Below, piece by piece: positions 9,828-33,807 of a stretch of DNA of 33,807 bases (the first letter of the stretch is position 1; every line of letters begins with the position of its first letter). The notes under the pieces are model-generated. The model saw only the letters and a program-made list of their open reading frames with translations. It was not told where the DNA came from and ran no database searches. The position numbers and the translations under genes are program-made. The stretch is from Cyclobacteriaceae bacterium (lineage in GTDB: Bacteria > Bacteroidota > Bacteroidia > Cytophagales > Cyclobacteriaceae). Location of the stretch: the NCBI GenBank assembly GCA_026989505.1, contig JALSJF010000012.1, forward strand, positions 1-33,807, read 5' to 3'.

Positions 9828-9851
9828 CGAAAAATTCATATGAATTTTTCG
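9828..9851. promoter_or_regulatory. 24-bp perfect palindrome within the promoter of the GNAT-like gene
   Basis: CGAAAAATTCAT and its complement ATGAATTTTTCG form a perfect 24-bp palindrome. It ends three bases before a perfect -7 element (9855) and covers the expected -33 region, so a protein bound here would compete with RNA polymerase. It shares the core ATTCAT/ATGAAT with the repeat at 9747-9771. Confidence 0.6.
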
Positions 9852-26449: not shown

Positions 26450-27232
26450 TCAGAAATCCTTCTTCGAGGCTTTGCGGGCAATAAAATAAACGGGAATGAT
26501 CGTCCAGATAACAAGCACCAGCAGGGAACTGAAAATGCCGGCATGGGTACCAAAGAATTTTTGGAAGATGGCCCCCGTATAGCCCAGCAGGGCCGAGATA
26601 TCGAGCTTGAGCAGGATTAATATCCTGGAGAGATCAATGGGGTTAAACATGGTAGCAATAAGGGTGAACTTATCGAGCGGGTAGTCTTCAAAAATGATCA
26701 GGGAGATCAAAAACATGCCATCGTAAATAACGGCCATAAACAGCCAGACCAGGATAGCATAGCCAAAACCTTTGATTTTATTATCGTTACTGAGGGCAAT
26801 ATTATAGGCCAGGGCCACAAAAATCAGGGTAAGGAAGGAGCCGGACAACAGTAGCAGGCCGAAATTAGCCATTTCGGCAGACTGCCAGAGGCCGTAGAAC
26901 ATAAACGGGATACCCAGGCCAATGACCAGGCTGAGCATCAACGACAAAGAAACCCCGAGGTACTGACCGATGAAAATGGTGGTACGCTTGATGGGCTGGG
27001 CCAGCAACAACTCGGTAAATTCGCGCGAGCTGTAAAAATACATGACCCCGAAAATAGTGCCGATCATAGGTGTGAGCACAATAATGATATTCATCAGGGT
27101 AATTACCGATTTGGCAACACTGTTATTCAAAAAGAGCAAAGCAAAGCCCAGCACCAGGTAAAACAGGAAATACACATAGCTCCAGCGGCTACGGATAAGG
27201 TCATAAAAGCTGTATTGCAGTACTTTAATCAT
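26450..27232 (-). CDS. nosY: ABC transporter permease NosY
   Basis: A 260-residue integral membrane protein with about six helices (for example LVLGFALLFL, IIIVLTPMIGTIFGVMYFY and the terminal SSLLVLVIWTIIPVYFIA). It contains the SSREFTELLLAQPIKRTTIFIGQYLG segment common in NosY/ABC-2 permeases. With NosF and NosD it forms the complex that helps assemble the copper-sulphide site (CuZ) of nitrous oxide reductase. The ATG overlaps the nosF stop (ATGA). Last gene of the nos locus. Confidence 0.92.
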   Translation of the reverse strand: MIKVLQYSFYDLIRSRWSYVYFLFYLVLGFALLFLNNSVAKSVITLMNIIIVLTPMIGTIFGVMYFYSSREFTELLLAQPIKRTTIFIGQYLGVSLSLMLSLVIGLGIPFMFYGLWQSAEMANFGLLLLSGSFLTLIFVALAYNIALSNDNKIKGFGYAILVWLFMAVIYDGMFLISLIIFEDYPLDKFTLIATMFNPIDLSRILILLKLDISALLGYTGAIFQKFFGTHAGIFSSLLVLVIWTIIPVYFIARKASKKDF

Positions 27233-27933
27233 TTGTTCTCGGATAAAATAGTGGCGATGGCATGCTCCAGGTCGTTACGGTCGCTTTTTTGCTTAAGTTC
27301 AGCCACGGTACCTTTAAAATAAATATTTCCTTCCAGCAAAAACACAATCTCATCGGCCATGGTTTCCACAAAATCCATGATATGGGTAGTGATGAGAATG
27401 GTTTTACCGGCTTCCCTTTCCTTGCGGATTAAATCTTTTAGGTGCAGCAACGACACCGGGTCCAGGCCGGTAGTCGGCTCATCGAGTATCAGCAGCGGGC
27501 TGTCGAACATAAACGCCAGCACCAGGTTTACCTTTTGCTTGGTGCCCCCCGACAGGTTGCCCAGTTTCTTGTCAAGGAAGGGTTCCAGCCCGAACATGTC
27601 GATCAACTCTGTATCGTTGGCCTGCCGGTTGCGCAGGTTTTTGATCATGTTAATCAACTCGGTTACGGTAATATTATCCGGGAAGCGGGCAATCTGGGGC
27701 AGGTAATCAATGTTTTTCCGGTAATCATATTTTCCTTTGATCACCTCGCCATCAATTTTTATTTCGCCCTGCTGCGGGATGACCATACCGAGGATGCTTT
27801 TGATCAGCGTGGTTTTGCCCGAACCATTGGGCCCCAGAATGGCGAAAATACCCTTATCGGCAATGGTCAGGCTAACGCTGTCGAGCACCTCTACCTTACC
27901 AAACTTTTTATGTAAACCGGTTATTTCAATCAT
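27229..27933 (-). CDS. nosF: ABC transporter ATP-binding protein NosF
   Basis: A 234-residue ATPase. It shows Walker A GPNGSGKTT (residues 34-42), the signature LSGGTKQKV, Walker B LLILDEPTTGLDP and the switch histidine in ITTHIMD. It energises the NosDFY complex at the inner membrane. The start overlaps the nosD end by 8 bases (ATGATTGA). Confidence 0.94.
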   Translation of the reverse strand: MIEITGLHKKFGKVEVLDSVSLTIADKGIFAILGPNGSGKTTLIKSILGMVIPQQGEIKIDGEVIKGKYDYRKNIDYLPQIARFPDNITVTELINMIKNLRNRQANDTELIDMFGLEPFLDKKLGNLSGGTKQKVNLVLAFMFDSPLLILDEPTTGLDPVSLLHLKDLIRKEREAGKTILITTHIMDFVETMADEIVFLLEGNIYFKGTVAELKQKSDRNDLEHAIATILSENK

Positions 27934-29173
27934 TGATTATTTTCATTGAGGGTGAAGTATCCAGTAAATCATCCGGGGTGAATACAGGGGAGACCTTCTC
28001 GGAAAAATTTAAAATATCAATAAACAAACTCCTTAACAGAATAATGGTTTCCGGGGTGCGGTTAACAATATAGGAGAACAATTTTACCGGCCGGTAGGGC
28101 ACATCGCCAATGCCGTCCTTGTCCAGGTCATAGCCGGCATAAGAACTCCAGTAATTGTGGTCAAACAAATTATCGTTCATTTTGGTATTGTAGGAGACAT
28201 CAAAAGAGTTGCTCAAAAAGTCGTTCCCGGTAAAAATATTGGCATAACAGCCGCCTGTAAACTTAACGGCCCAACCATTGCCAACAAACCGGTTGTTTTT
28301 ATAGTTTATCCTGTTGGTACCTTCAATATTTACCCCAATGGTATTTTCTTCAAACAGGTTTTGCTCAATTTCAGCATCATAAATTTCTTTCAGCAACAGG
28401 CCAAACGAGGCTGTTCCCCAGTTTCTAAGAAACTTATTCCGCTTCATGTTGATGAATTTTGAGAACATAACGGCTACGCCAGCCCCGTTGTTGATAAACA
28501 CATTGTCATAATAATCATCATGGTTGGAAAACATAAAATGTAAACCATAGCGGATATTATTGGTGCTGATATTATCCGTTATTAAACTCTCTTCAACAAA
28601 TTCAAGATAGATGCCATCACGTAACCGCGAAAGGTGGTTACCGGTAACCGTGATGTTTTTACAGTGCCAGATATGAATACCATTACCGGAGTTGAACTCT
28701 TCTACCGCCTGACTGGATATGGTATTCTGATGGATAAGGCCATAGTCAGACTTCTGCACATAAATGCCAAAAAAAACATCTTTCAGCACATTATCAGCAA
28801 TAACGAAATAATCGCTGTTGCCAATATGGATAGCCGCAAAATCCTGGGTATAGCTAAGGCCGACATTTTGTAGGACAAAGCCACGCAAGGTAACACTATC
28901 GGATTTTATTTCAACAATACCGGCCAGGTATTGGCCGTCAATAACCGGGGCGTTTTCCCCCAGTAAAACCAATGGCTTGTCAATAATTATGTTGTTTTCT
29001 AAGTAAGTACCGCCTCTAACCAGGATTGTATCGTAAGGGCTGGCCTGCAAGACTGCATCTTTTACAGATTTAACAGCACAGGTGGCACATACCTCTGTTG
29101 TTACCGCAGCCGCTGGTAATGACAACAGTAGAGCCCCAATGAAAATGCCTAAAACAAACCTGAATTGTTTCAT
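27926..29173 (-). CDS. nosD: Nitrous oxide reductase maturation protein NosD
   Basis: A 415-residue periplasmic protein with a signal peptide (cleaved after LSLPAAA). The body is a right-handed beta-helix of CASH/NosD repeats with recurrent N-N and G-x-x-I turns, for example NGIHIWHCKNITVTGNHL and NSFDVSYNTKMNDNLFDHNYWSSY. NosD receives copper and sulphur species for building CuZ. Near the mature N-terminus is a CATC pair (CxxC) that could bind copper. A promoter-like element lies in the 64-bp gap after nosL, so nosDFY may be separately transcribed. Confidence 0.93.
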   Translation of the reverse strand: MKQFRFVLGIFIGALLLSLPAAAVTTEVCATCAVKSVKDAVLQASPYDTILVRGGTYLENNIIIDKPLVLLGENAPVIDGQYLAGIVEIKSDSVTLRGFVLQNVGLSYTQDFAAIHIGNSDYFVIADNVLKDVFFGIYVQKSDYGLIHQNTISSQAVEEFNSGNGIHIWHCKNITVTGNHLSRLRDGIYLEFVEESLITDNISTNNIRYGLHFMFSNHDDYYDNVFINNGAGVAVMFSKFINMKRNKFLRNWGTASFGLLLKEIYDAEIEQNLFEENTIGVNIEGTNRINYKNNRFVGNGWAVKFTGGCYANIFTGNDFLSNSFDVSYNTKMNDNLFDHNYWSSYAGYDLDKDGIGDVPYRPVKLFSYIVNRTPETIILLRSLFIDILNFSEKVSPVFTPDDLLDTSPSMKIIND

Positions 29174-29190
29174 CGTACGAAGTTGCCCGG

Positions 29191-29225
29191 CAAATTTACT
29201 ATTGTTTCAACTATGGTAGTACAAA
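29191..29225 (-). promoter_or_regulatory. Possible internal promoter for nosDFY
   Basis: On the minus strand TTTG (29225-29222), 23 bp and TAAATTTG (29198-29191) resemble the Bacteroidota -33 and -7 elements. The -7 element ends 18 bp before the nosD ATG. Confidence 0.4.
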
Positions 29226-29237
29226 AGCAGGGGACTA

Positions 29238-29666
29238 TTATTCAACTTCCTTTTTAACCGATGCCCAATTATAGAGGGTGCCGCCATGCTCAGCTTTTAC
29301 TGTAGCCGCTTTTTCCTCGCTGCTAAAGCCCGAAAGGAATGCCCCCATAGGACTGGGAATTTCCGGGGAAATTAAATAAACGGCTGTTCGGGCAGGGATC
29401 AGCTTGCCGGGTTCGCTATAGTCATTTATTAAAAAAAGTGCTATATCCGCTTCATTGCGTTGTTTCAAATCGTTAATCATACACTCTATGGCATCATACT
29501 TATAGGCTTTGCCTTTGGCCGTAACAATCTGGGCCGCATGCTGGTTATCAACAATAGTCATTTTACAAAAATGACAGCCATCTTTACCATAATTAATCTC
29601 GGTGGGTTCTACCGAACAGGATATCCCCAATATTAATAGGGTAAGTACAGTCAGTAGGTTTTTCAT
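29238..29666 (-). CDS. nosL: Copper chaperone lipoprotein NosL
   Basis: A 142-residue lipoprotein with the lipobox cysteine at C17 (LGISC). The copper-binding region is CHFCKM (C31, C34, M36), followed by the conserved DAIECM and the MGAFLSGFSS segment. NosL binds Cu(I) and donates it to apo-NosZ or NosDFY outside the cytoplasm. The ATG overlaps the preceding membrane-protein gene by four bases (ATGA). Confidence 0.93.
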   Translation of the reverse strand: MKNLLTVLTLLILGISCSVEPTEINYGKDGCHFCKMTIVDNQHAAQIVTAKGKAYKYDAIECMINDLKQRNEADIALFLINDYSEPGKLIPARTAVYLISPEIPSPMGAFLSGFSSEEKAATVKAEHGGTLYNWASVKKEVE

Positions 29667-30262
29667 GTTATTTCGTTTTTTTGTTCTTCTTTTTTATCAA
29701 CATAAAAGGCAACTAACGACAGCATCATGCCTGAAAAAAGGAAATAGGCCCCGGTAGAGGGGTATGACCTGGCAATAAAGTTGAGGATAACTTCTGTACC
29801 AAACAAGGGCGGCTGATAGTCAAGGGGGTTACCCTGGTCATCAAGAAACTTTATAGCCGCATTTTCATTTAAATTATGGCCATACTCATATTCCCATAAG
29901 TAAAAATCATACATACCGGCTGCCCCCAGGATAGACATCACCACAAACCAGGTAACATATAACCCACGTCTGCCCACAAAACCAATAATAATACCCATTA
30001 CACTCATAGCGATTATCACCTTTGGGAAAATATCAAACTCCGGCATATGCTCTGGAATTTCCTTCATCCCCACATAATGGTTCATCAGGTTAATATTTTT
30101 TATATCGTTCGGCTCCTGGTCGGTTATTTTATTGATCCAGATGTTCATTCCCAGGGGATCAGGATATTGGGGTGCTTCCAGGGTAATATTCCACAATGGG
30201 AATACAAACAGGGCCAATAAGAGCAGTGCCCCTATTATCATTATAGCCTTCGATTTTCTCAT
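29663..30262 (-). CDS. Four-helix membrane protein of the nos locus (NosB-like position)
   Basis: A 199-residue protein with predicted helices at about 6-24, 80-97, 100-118 and 170-187. The large loop after helix 1 (25-79) holds APQYP (30-34), LGMNIWIN (37-44) and NHYVGM (61-66), sequence blocks I associate with membrane proteins beside nosZ and nosL in clade II clusters. No function is established. The loop has methionines and histidines but no cysteines, so copper handling is possible but unproven. It is cut off from nosZ by a terminator hairpin and coupled to nosL by ATGA. Confidence 0.65.
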   Translation of the reverse strand: MRKSKAIMIIGALLLLALFVFPLWNITLEAPQYPDPLGMNIWINKITDQEPNDIKNINLMNHYVGMKEIPEHMPEFDIFPKVIIAMSVMGIIIGFVGRRGLYVTWFVVMSILGAAGMYDFYLWEYEYGHNLNENAAIKFLDDQGNPLDYQPPLFGTEVILNFIARSYPSTGAYFLFSGMMLSLVAFYVDKKEEQKNEIT

Positions 30263-30293
30263 AGCATTAGTATTTAATTGTTTGATACCTTCA

Positions 30294-30352
30294 TAAAAAA
30301 GATAAAGGTGCCGAAATCCTATTTAAGTTGTTGGAACCGGCACCTTTTATCT
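30294..30352 (-). terminator. Strong terminator hairpin after nosZ
   Basis: AGATAAAGGTGCCG (30300-30313) pairs with CGGCACCTTTTATCT (30338-30352) apart from one bulged A, leaving a 24-nt loop. On the minus strand the stem is followed by TTTTTTATGA. It starts 20 bp after the nosZ stop, between nosZ and the accessory genes. Confidence 0.75.
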
Positions 30353-30372
30353 GAATCTAACTAAAAATTCAA

Positions 30373-32337
30373 CTATTCATCGTCCAAAGACCATTTAAGC
30401 GGCACATCAGACCCCTTAGGCGATACCCGCACATACCCCTGCATTTCCTGGTGCAGGGCTGAGCAGAAATCAGTACAATAGAACGGCCACACACCTTCTG
30501 CCGTGGCATCCCAAACAAACGTTTCGGTCTGGCCCGGCATAATTAACATTTCAGAAGTGTTGGCGCCAATCATGCTGATACCATGCGGTACGTCATAGTC
30601 TTGCTCCAGGTTAGTCACATGGAAGTAAACCTTATCCCCCACTTTTATGCCCTCAATATTATCCGGGGCAAAGTGGCTGCGGATCATGGTCATGTAAACA
30701 TGCACGGTGTTGCCATCACGAACAACCTTGGTGTCTTTTTCACTTAATGTAGCGTAAGGGTGCTTGTTCTCTTCAAGTTTATAATACTTTTTAGAATTGG
30801 GGGCCACCAAATCGGCCGGGATACCGGCTGCATAGTGCGGTTCGCCAACCGTAGGGAAGTCCAGCAACAGCTCCATTTTCTCCCCGGTAATATCATAAAG
30901 TTGTGCCGATTGCGTAACCTCGGGGCCGGTAGGCAGGTAGCGGTCTTTGGTGATTTTGTTCATAGCCACCAGGTATTTACCAAAGGGTGCCTGTGAGTTG
31001 CCACCCGGGATCATTAAGTGCCCTACAGAGTAATAGGTAGGCTTTCTGTCCACCACTTCCCAGGTACCCAGTTTCCATTTCACTACCTCAGAAGAAATAA
31101 AGAAAGTGGTATAGGCATTACCCTTGCCATCAAACTCGGTGTGCAACGGCCCTAAACCCGGCTGTACAACTGTTCCGGCCAGTACGTCTTCGAAGTTAAG
31201 GATAGGAATACCATAGGCATCCCCGGCAAACTTCTCGTTCTTAATAGCCTCAAGCATTTTCGTAAACGAGTGAACCGTAACATTGGCCGAAAGCTTACCA
31301 CTACCAACAATGTACTCACCCGAAGGGTCAACATCGCAACCGTGTGGCGATTTTGGCATCGGCATGAAGTAAACCAGACCCGGTAATTTAGACGGATCGA
31401 GGATTTTAACTTCTTTTTCCCAGATAGTCTTGGCGCTATGGGTTTCCTCATCATAAATATTGTGGGCATAGTTGGTCTTCATGGTTTCAAATTTGCCCTC
31501 CTTGATGTACTCTTCGGCTTTTTTCCAGTTAACGGCAGCCACAAAATCCTTGTCCCTTTGCGAAGCGTTAACCTCTAACAAGGTATGGGCTTCCTCGGTA
31601 TTGTAGGTGGTATAAAAGAACCAGCCATGTGATTTCCCGCGGCCAGGGTGTGCTTTGTCGTAGTCAAAGCCCGGCATCATAATTTGAAAGGCAATATTCA
31701 TTTCACCCGTTTCCGGATCAACTTTTAAGAAAGAGAGCGCCCCTTTAAAGTTACCTTTATATTCATTAATCGGCATGTCCCTTTGCGGTACGGGTACGGC
31801 AAAGCGTGTTCCGGCAATCACGTACTCGGTATTGTCGGTAACATAAGAAGAACTATGGTTACCGGCACTATTGGGGATTTCTATAATCTCCTCTGTTTCA
31901 AACGTAGTCAGGTCAACACGGGCAATACGGGGGGTATTGTTTTCGTTAACAAACACCCAGCGGCCATCCAGCTTGCCATTGGTTTGCGAAATGTCGGGGT
32001 GGTGCAAATCCCCCCACGGAATGAAACCATAAGAAGTGTTTAGCATAGGTTTGGTTTCTTCATTAAAACCATAAGCTTTTTCCGCATCAACCGAAAAGAC
32101 CGGAATAACTTTAAACAACCTGCCTGACGGAAGCCCGTAAACAGCCAGTTGGCCATTAAAACCTCCCGAAATAAAGGCATAGAACTCATCGTGCTCTCCC
32201 GGGGCAACATATACCCTTTCGGCCAGGTTACCACCTAAAGCTCCCTGGTTACCCTTTTTTGAGCTGCCGGTATTGCAACTTGTTAGTGAGACGGCACCAA
32301 CAACAGCGAACAGTAATAAATAATTAAAGAATTTCAT
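30373..32337 (-). CDS. nosZ: Nitrous oxide reductase, Sec-type lipoprotein (clade II-like)
   Basis: A 654-residue enzyme reducing N2O to N2. There is no twin-arginine motif; instead a Sec lipoprotein signal ends in LTSC with C21 as lipid site. A seven-bladed propeller supplies CuZ histidines, visible in DLHHPD, GNHSSS, KSHGW, YAHN, SPHGCD, PLHTEF and EPHYA. The C-terminal cupredoxin domain has the CuA ligands H585 (DVPHGI) and C621, C625, H629 and M632 (YCTDFCSALHQEM). All copper ligands appear intact. The Sec signal and the gene context fit clade II. It lies 33 bp after the FAS1 gene and probably shares its promoter. Confidence 0.96.
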   Translation of the reverse strand: MKFFNYLLLFAVVGAVSLTSCNTGSSKKGNQGALGGNLAERVYVAPGEHDEFYAFISGGFNGQLAVYGLPSGRLFKVIPVFSVDAEKAYGFNEETKPMLNTSYGFIPWGDLHHPDISQTNGKLDGRWVFVNENNTPRIARVDLTTFETEEIIEIPNSAGNHSSSYVTDNTEYVIAGTRFAVPVPQRDMPINEYKGNFKGALSFLKVDPETGEMNIAFQIMMPGFDYDKAHPGRGKSHGWFFYTTYNTEEAHTLLEVNASQRDKDFVAAVNWKKAEEYIKEGKFETMKTNYAHNIYDEETHSAKTIWEKEVKILDPSKLPGLVYFMPMPKSPHGCDVDPSGEYIVGSGKLSANVTVHSFTKMLEAIKNEKFAGDAYGIPILNFEDVLAGTVVQPGLGPLHTEFDGKGNAYTTFFISSEVVKWKLGTWEVVDRKPTYYSVGHLMIPGGNSQAPFGKYLVAMNKITKDRYLPTGPEVTQSAQLYDITGEKMELLLDFPTVGEPHYAAGIPADLVAPNSKKYYKLEENKHPYATLSEKDTKVVRDGNTVHVYMTMIRSHFAPDNIEGIKVGDKVYFHVTNLEQDYDVPHGISMIGANTSEMLIMPGQTETFVWDATAEGVWPFYCTDFCSALHQEMQGYVRVSPKGSDVPLKWSLDDE

Positions 32338-33154: not shown

Positions 33155-33565
33155 ATGTTTTCAAATTCTACCAAGTATGCTATCCGGGCCATTGTTTACA
33201 TCATGGAGAACCAGCATGAGCGGAAGGACACGGTAGTGAAAATGGCTGAAGAGCTAAAAATTCCGCAGCCGTATTTAAGCAAGGTATTACAGCAATTGGC
33301 CAAAAGCGGCATTATTTCCTCGGCCAAAGGCCGGGGGGGTGGTTTTTACCTCACCAAAGAAAACATGCAGCGGCCTTTAATGGATGTGGTGGTGTGTATT
33401 GAAGGCTATAATGTTTTCAATAAATGTATTCTGGGCCTGGAAAAATGCTCTGACGAAAACCCCTGTATCCTGCACCCGCATTTCAAGGCCTTTAAAGCCA
33501 GCATTGAACACTCGGTAAGCGAGCAATCGGTGGCTGATTTATTTAACATTGCCACAGATGATTAA
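33155..33565 (+). CDS. Rrf2-family transcriptional regulator with Fe-S cysteines
   Basis: A 136-residue winged-helix protein. The N-terminus MFSNSTKYAIRAIVYI and the helix-turn-helix IPQPYLSKVLQQLAKSGIISSAKGRGGGFYL are typical of Rrf2. Three cysteines, C91, C98 and C104, and H107 (CILGLEKC, PCILH) correspond to the cluster ligands of IscR and NsrR; C81 is an extra cysteine. An Fe-S cluster that senses NO or redox state is therefore likely. It is divergent from the FAS1-nosZ operon across 199 bp and is the obvious candidate for its regulator. Confidence 0.88.
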   Translation: MFSNSTKYAIRAIVYIMENQHERKDTVVKMAEELKIPQPYLSKVLQQLAKSGIISSAKGRGGGFYLTKENMQRPLMDVVVCIEGYNVFNKCILGLEKCSDENPCILHPHFKAFKASIEHSVSEQSVADLFNIATDD

Positions 33566-33611: not shown

Positions 33612-33640
33612 TTGATATGCCCAAAAAGTAATTATGTTTG
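33612..33640 (+). promoter_or_regulatory. -7 element before the tRNA-Leu-like repeat
   Basis: TATGTTTG (33633-33640) fits TAnnTTTG; a weaker TTTA at 33608-33611 precedes it by 21 bp. The first tRNA-Leu-like copy starts 18 bp downstream, as expected for a tRNA promoter. Confidence 0.45.
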
Positions 33641-33657
33641 CATGCCAATTACCTGTT

Positions 33658-33768
33658 GCCCAGGTGGCGGAATTGGTAGACCTGCCTGCCGGCAGGCAGG
33701 CGCCTTGAACCAACGCTAATTGCATAAGGCAGTTAGTATTACTTATTGTACTTGAAATTATATATTAT
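33658..33768 (+). pseudogene. tRNA-Leu 5' part interrupted by a palindrome, copy 1 of tandem repeat
   Basis: GCCCAGGTGGCGG followed by AATTGGTAGAC is the acceptor strand, D-stem and D-loop of a bacterial tRNA-Leu. At the point where the D-stem should close, the perfect palindrome CCTGCCTGCCGGCAGGCAGG (33681-33700) follows. The remaining 68 bases are partly AT-rich and contain no anticodon arm, no T-arm and no 3' acceptor strand CCTGGGC before the next copy starts. I see no way to fold an intact tRNA from it. Confidence 0.55.
33681..33700. repeat. Perfect 20-bp GC-rich palindrome
   Basis: CCTGCCTGCCGGCAGGCAGG is self-complementary over its whole length and built from the CCTG/CAGG unit. It occurs again at 33792 onward at the same place in the second copy, where the window cuts it off. 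It looks like a small repetitive extragenic palindrome. Confidence 0.75.
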
Positions 33769-33807
33769 GCCCAGGTGGCGGAATTGGTAGACCTGCCTGC
33801 CGGCAGG
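33769..33807 (+). pseudogene. tRNA-Leu-like repeat, copy 2, cut by the window end
   Basis: The 39 bases are identical to 33658-33696, giving a period of 111 bp, and end inside the palindrome. Whether a full tRNA-Leu follows cannot be seen. Upstream flanks of the two copies differ, so the identity begins exactly at the tRNA 5' end. Confidence 0.6.

Follow-up and report, generated by a model that had tools for sequence, protein, structure and literature searches.

Two partial tRNA-Leu(CAA) genes, each split by the same palindrome, stand in tandem at the very end of the contig that we analysed, and quite probably they are 5' remnants left behind by a minimal, homing-like element of tRNA genes that carries a GIY-YIG nuclease of approximately 85 aa. 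The window, i.e. the whole stretch of 33,807 nucleotides, is contig C12 of a Cyclobacteriaceae draft genome of 3.5 Mb in 273 contigs. In other genomes one layout recurs, in which the nuclease gene is located between an intact tRNA gene and a remnant of it, with heads upstream and tails downstream of the intact tRNA, and with a GC-rich hairpin in a loop or junction of the remnant. The recurrence of an intact tRNA, a duplicate, a nuclease gene between the two, a hairpin and tandem growth points to a homing-like element. We see an even chance that these loci belong to an undescribed class of minimal mobile elements on tRNA genes in several phyla, which would consist of an SLX1-like GIY-YIG nuclease and a hairpin-blocked tRNA piece, spread between isotypes, always leave one intact tRNA and grow tandem arrays.

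Results

Tandem tRNA-Leu heads at the contig end

The two heads start at 33658 and 33769 on the forward strand, i.e. 111 bp apart, and as the earlier note had reported they share 39 identical bases counted from tRNA nt 1, and 40 if the preceding T is included (33657-33696 versus 33768-33807). Each contains nt 1-23 of tRNA-Leu(CAA) (33658-33680 and 33769-33791), covering the 5' acceptor strand, the 5' strand of the D-stem and the D-loop. After nt 23, at the boundary of the D-loop and the 3' strand of the D-stem, both are interrupted by the perfect 20-bp palindrome CCTGCCTGCCGGCAGGCAGG, with an intact tRNA-Leu(CAA) of a same-genus genome (G001) as the reference. The palindrome is complete in the first copy (33681-33700), whereas the second copy shows its first 16 of 20 bases (33792-33807) because the contig ends at 33807; the claim that the same palindrome interrupts both heads at the D-stem thus stands. 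Behind the palindrome the first copy continues with CGC (33701-33703, forward strand; nt 24-26, 3' strand of the D-stem) and diverges from there on, and comparison with the intact gene of G001 bore out that the anticodon arm, the T-arm and the 3' acceptor strand are missing. The spacer between the heads (33704-33768, forward strand) has no room for a nuclease ORF and resembles the short class of spacers (11-125 bp) described below. The unit in the window contains no nuclease ORF and represents the short, nuclease-less form only.

The heads are preceded by a gene for an Rrf2-family regulator (33155-33565, forward strand; Pfam PF02082, E 3e-26). A promoter-like element had been noticed before the first copy, and TATGTTTG at 33633-33640 (forward strand), 17 nt before the first head, is a candidate for it, fitting the Bacteroidota -7 promoter motif TAnnTTTG. 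Near the Rrf2 gene, positions 26450-32337 hold what we take, by eye, to be a nitrous-oxide reductase-like cluster (NosZ, NosL, NosD, NosF, NosY). Another perfect palindrome, AT-rich, at least 20 bp long and unrelated to the tRNA one, is found around AAAATTCATATGAATTTT at 9830-9849.

No complete cloverleaf or functional tRNA was found at 33658-33807 by ARAGORN or Rfam, and nowhere on the contig does this sequence form part of a normally folding, intact tRNA-Leu. None of the Rfam families scored above the gathering threshold at the window end, the single candidate being PtaRNA1 with 19 bits versus the 47 needed, and the plasmid records searched with the window end gave no match. With up to 3 mismatches allowed, 0.01 matches to the palindrome are expected by chance in the window.

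Split tRNA copies in the same genome

A search for the exact 20-mer in the 3.5-Mb genome returned two copies, both inside partial tRNA copies: the one in the window (tRNA-Leu) and one on C137, where it splits a partial 5' copy of tRNA-Gly 107 bp upstream of an intact tRNA-Gly(GCC). Being rare by expectation and confined to partial tRNAs in both of its exact genomic copies, the palindrome is placed in a way that is more than chance. Other hairpins were found in partial copies of the same genome, namely in a tRNA-Gly 3' tail and in tandem tRNA-Val tails on C86. A full set is present around the tRNA-His gene on C18, with a hairpin head, the intact gene, a GIY-YIG gene, a hairpin tail and a second GIY-YIG gene, and C247 carries tandem GIY-YIG genes plus tails. 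In the locus at C86:1-900 (L053), the tRNA-Val is followed by tandem repeats of approximately 150 bp of its 3' half with the hairpin TCACGCCCCAGGCGTGA, and the start of C86 falls inside this array.

A search of the genome with the intact tRNA-Leu(CAA) of G001 matched both heads and the first bases of contig C41 (E 4e-5) and, more weakly, further sequences that included other tRNA-Leu genes; it found no tRNA-Leu(CAA) body. C41 opens with the codons NFLKSI-stop, resembling the end of a GIY-YIG protein (EFLKSL), and these last codons are the visible part of a putative GIY-YIG ORF for the locus of the window. After the stop come nt 55-85 of tRNA-Leu(CAA), split after nt 64 in the T-loop by an 18-bp hairpin CCTGCCTGCGCAGGCAGG, and this tail is followed by a terminator-like hairpin. 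Since the heads end C12 and a tail starts C41, an intact tRNA-Leu(CAA) is expected between these contigs; the missing gene probably lies there, and we infer that C12 and C41 join. It is also possible that the heads and the tail are two separate loci. The suggestion in the earlier note that the assembly had stopped on a repeat fits the contig end, with C41 beginning in the tail of the same tRNA.

In G001 (contig C75) the Rrf2 gene (73% identical DNA) is followed by two tRNA-Leu(CAA) genes called by ARAGORN, the first with an insert near its 3' end and the second intact, the latter being our reference. Synteny with G001 did not support the join of C12 and C41, because the relative of a C41 gene is located on another contig (C49) in a stretch without tRNA.

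Recurrence of the palindrome at tRNA genes

The exact palindrome was present in 28 of the 196 family genomes searched, and its letters read backwards, as a control, in none of the 196. We inspected 48 distinct places: at 16 of them the palindrome interrupts the 5' head of a tRNA (Leu, Gly, Arg, Val, Gln, Thr), and the other 32 were outside any tRNA match. The proposal of a palindromic element linked to tRNA genes gained support from this recurrence in the tRNA heads of many genomes. Apart from the window, all of the split heads (15 of 16) are followed at a distance of 22-341 bp by the intact same tRNA, downstream and in the same orientation. L097 resembles the window most closely, having two tandem palindrome heads and then an intact gene. 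The variants CCTGTCTGCCGACAGGCAGG or CCTGACTGCCGTCAGGCAGG (40 regions, 39 distinct contexts) split a tRNA copy in 6 cases. The palindrome family also occurs within other short repeats (GCGAGATTC/CATCTGACC, CTTTGCGTC/TTTGCG, ATTGCTTCGGTCG..CTCGCAATGACG; loci L294, L295, L297-L299; L308, L318, L325, L326; L089, L105, L324). At four loci (L065, L066, L070, L076) mechanical ORFs across the palindrome give peptides such as LPAGRQ and PACRQAG, which are not evidence for a gene; neither the palindrome letters nor two peptide strings encoded by it gave a literature match.

When genome contigs were scanned for the palindrome next to a D-arm motif, we obtained 118 hits in 107 stretches, a set that partly overlaps the family set (L155 and L161 versus L077 and L102). 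As a D-arm position was preset in the pattern, the insertion sites and the shares of heads and tails are biased by design and the scan is uninformative on either. The intact same tRNA was located within 800 bp downstream in 71 of the 118 hits, which by record title include Bacteroidota, Patescibacteria, Omnitrophota and WOR-3, and a few other labels that may be wrong bins. The spacers fall into a short class of 11-125 bp (31 of 71), with a GIY-YIG ORF between in 0 of 31, and a long class of 211-674 bp (40 of 71), which encloses a GIY-YIG gene of approximately 85 aa in 39 of 40; many remnant copies, including that of the window spacer, are without a nuclease gene. The remaining 47 hits comprised 15 at less than 500 bp from the stretch end, 10 followed by GIY-YIG and 11 that were not D-arm-like. 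Most remnants start at tRNA nt 1: in 57 of 71, no more than 3 bases before this point are identical. Their median end is nt 33 (range 26-74; 71 hits). Several loci of the scan have two palindrome hits each. In these 71 hits the fragment and the intact tRNA are 11-674 bp apart, and no kilobase cargo with an integrase separates them. The head at L183 (CALPLL020000168.1), titled Rhizobium sp., is the same as in Flavobacterium-type loci, and this contig may have been wrongly binned.

GIY-YIG nuclease loci

A profile made from six GIY-YIG ORFs matched in 104 of 148 family genomes. We studied 72 distinct nuclease loci, all of them better matches (30 returned as loci, 2 from the own genome and 40 picked down the listing), of which 5 were sources of the profile, picked for their tRNA link, and 67 were non-seed loci. 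A same-strand intact tRNA was found within 400 bp in 61 of the 72 loci (56 of 67 without the seeds), 'intact' being an ARAGORN call, which is likely to overlook genes that have an insert in a loop, and none of the 72 had a tRNA on the opposite strand only. The neighbouring tRNAs are of many isotypes, indicating a gene class, not one site. Partial copies of that tRNA were present at 56 of the 61 loci (51 of 56 without seeds) and lacking at five. By a simple rule, a hairpin was in or at a partial copy at 48 of these 56 loci (44 of 51 without seeds), and 8 had none; the rule is satisfied at 14.3% of random positions and a locus has a mean of 2.2 partial copies, therefore some loci pass by chance.

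PF01541 was detected in all six related ORFs tested. In these ORFs, which are 78-89 aa long, the catalytic domain takes up almost the whole length and no separate DNA-binding domain is seen, i.e. they encode a bare GIY-YIG domain, and the nearest solved structures (PDB) by sequence are UPF0213 and SLX1. Searching 50,697 phage records with the 85-aa protein of L066 gave no hit at E 1e-5, and Rfam found ordinary tRNAs only at three loci. A long series of units was seen at L247 (G110:C1:3225000-3232000), where six tRNA-Asp heads in tandem and two intact genes are followed by 14 full tandem units of nuclease gene and remnant, each of approximately 346 bp, in which the anticodon arm of the tRNA-Asp copies is replaced by TCCCGATCCTCGGGA. 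In L233 a complete tRNA-Leu copy carries hairpins in both the D-loop and the T-loop.

Hairpin sites and pairing

The hairpins at the nuclease loci vary, with CCTG.., CCCGCCCG.. and TCCCG.. types, and their sites include the D-loop, the T-loop and the place of the anticodon arm, among others; the exact 20-mer occurs in 1 of the 67 non-seed loci. Of 24 events, a set that leaves out the window (which shows no intact tRNA-Leu(CAA)), one L097 head, L314 and L189, 23 have the insert in a cloverleaf loop or junction, versus 13.7 expected (P 2.4e-5 for independent events, an assumption that relatedness among the genomes may partly break). The two N of CCTGNCTGCCGNCAGGCAGG, hairpin bases 5 and 12, were complementary at 92 of 115 places versus 42 expected, the places being a hand tally among the matches listed, each counted as independent and most not checked for tRNA.

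Strand-specific insertion of the hairpin is unsupported because the orientation of the non-palindromic variants was mixed, 7 lying with and 5 against the tRNA strand. Outside tRNAs, a local inverted repeat with a stem of at least 6 enclosed the hairpin in its loop in 6 of 62 cases versus 2.35 expected, so that a preference for hairpin loops there is weak at most. A pure model in which a tRNA becomes immune when its target is lost with the native flank fails at G110, where the 3' flank of an intact tRNA-Asp is almost the one that the remnants have.

Discussion

In the mechanism that we propose, part of a tRNA gene would be duplicated with the tRNA itself left intact, and the nuclease would promote recombination at tRNA genes in the manner of phage SegB. 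This recombination may insert or amplify the unit of tRNA piece and nuclease gene, which would give the tandem arrays, and the hairpin may act as a lock that stops the duplicate from serving as a tRNA, as a further target or as a recombination partner. We infer the mobility of the element, the action of its nuclease and the role of its hairpin in this form. A lock is favoured because the hairpins are located in the remnant beside an uninterrupted copy, lie in loops and are varied in sequence. Past the end of C12 we would then expect an intact tRNA-Leu(CAA) and probably also a nuclease gene.

The main rival to the lock is that the hairpin works as a key, being the preferred substrate of an SLX1-like, structure-selective nuclease. 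Cutting at the hairpin would free tRNA-homologous ends and so drive hopping and tandem amplification, with the essential tRNA spared. This is a tentative alternative that we rate below the lock but would take seriously: SLX1, a structure-specific endonuclease, is among the nearest solved structures, the complementary base changes preserve the pairing of the hairpin, and tandem arrays can be long, as with the 14 full units of approximately 346 bp in G110. However, hairpins persist at the short-spacer loci, where no nuclease ORF lies between (31 of 71).

Somewhat less probable is that the palindrome is independent of the nuclease, as a REP-like dispersed 20-bp element with its own insertion route that is merely tolerated in tRNA remnants; the link to the nuclease would then come from both being at duplicated tRNA pieces. 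The 32 of 48 family places outside tRNA matches agree with such an element, as do the variants within other short repeats and the weak excess in inverted-repeat loops outside tRNAs (6 of 62 versus 2.35). Yet tRNA genes and their remnants are a tiny share of the genome and still account for 16 of the 48 places, at loops or junctions, and the equivalent sites of the nuclease loci hold other hairpin types, with the exact 20-mer in just 1 of 67 non-seed loci.

A similarly doubtful explanation concerns the window itself, where the second copy could be an assembly artefact, with one split head followed by an intact tRNA and a false loop back into the first copy at the contig end. The second copy matches the first right up to its final base and the contig breaks off within the repeat, as an artefact would have it, but tandem heads also occur elsewhere, with two plus an intact gene at L097, six in G110 and two hits at several loci of the scan.

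Fragments made by integrases are normally 3' ends with kilobase inserts. A plain array of tRNA pseudogenes that arose through unequal crossing over or insertion by an integrase, and that needs no dedicated element, is very unlikely: tRNA fragments from phage and ICE integration are common according to the available part of PMC9897764, and G011 has three intact tandem tRNA-Leu(CAA) genes at 114-bp spacing, but the recurring nuclease gene and the hairpins disfavour it, and so do the presence of heads as well as tails, the spacers of 11-674 bp and the D-arm remnants that mostly run from nt 1 (57 of 71) to about nt 33 (median end). The decayed tRNA array of the earlier note holds as far as tandem heads are found elsewhere (L097, G110), and falls short in that these heads stand with an intact copy and, often, with a GIY-YIG gene.

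If the homing-like element is real, it would be a very small parasite of tRNA genes, with a nuclease gene of approximately 250 bp and a hairpin of approximately 20 bp. In genomes of Bacteroidota, Patescibacteria and Omnitrophota it would account for a recurrent source of tRNA fragments, of tandem arrays and of broken contigs, and it would tie the story of phage SegB to bacterial chromosomes. It would also raise a testable question, namely if a structure-selective nuclease uses or avoids a hairpin in the copied tRNA gene.

Comparison with known systems

The arrangement of a nuclease with hairpin-split tRNAs was not found in the literature searched, among the matches listed, with most subscription journals and bioRxiv outside the scope. 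Its known parts are GIY-YIG homing enzymes near phage tRNAs, tRNA fragments made by integration and small palindromic elements. Of the latter, the Rickettsia palindromic elements, the PstI palindromes of Neurospora mitochondria, the double-hairpin elements of Allomyces and the GC clusters of yeast are short GC-rich hairpins in or beside genes, and some of these are at tRNA genes, e.g. the Neurospora mitochondrial PstI palindromes nearby. Compared by description, the loci studied here differ from them in that duplicate tRNA copies are interrupted and a GIY-YIG gene lies alongside. A REP-type palindrome comes with a TnpA_REP/RAYT transposase gene and has many dispersed copies; the own genome has two exact copies of the palindrome.

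With the small GIY-YIG proteins of the UPF0213 and SLX1 type the present ORFs have PF01541 in common, and we know of no fixed link of UPF0213 proteins to tRNA genes or hairpins. I-TevI has a separate DNA-binding domain, unlike the present ORFs. As in the tRNA fragments of integrases, phages and ICEs, a partial tRNA copy accompanies an intact gene, but in contrast to what the available part of that source (PMC9897764) describes, the inserts are tens to hundreds of bp long, heads occur together with tails and hairpins are present in the remnant. One of the genes for which a transfer out of Patescibacteria into other bacteria has been predicted encodes a GIY-YIG protein, and no tRNA link is mentioned in the portion of that paper available to us (PMC12455944).

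According to the accessible part of PMC13096335, SegB, a free-standing homing endonuclease of the GIY-YIG type, belongs to the tRNA region of phages T4 and T6, and recombination that amplifies a tRNA-plus-nuclease unit in tandem has been linked to it. The present nuclease differs from phage SegB in consisting of the catalytic domain only and in being found on bacterial contigs. Hairpin-split tRNA remnants, which are present in our loci, are not described for SegB in that part of PMC13096335. As with SegB in the same source, a GIY-YIG gene stands beside tRNA genes of many isotypes, and a unit that joins the two appears to be amplified in tandem.
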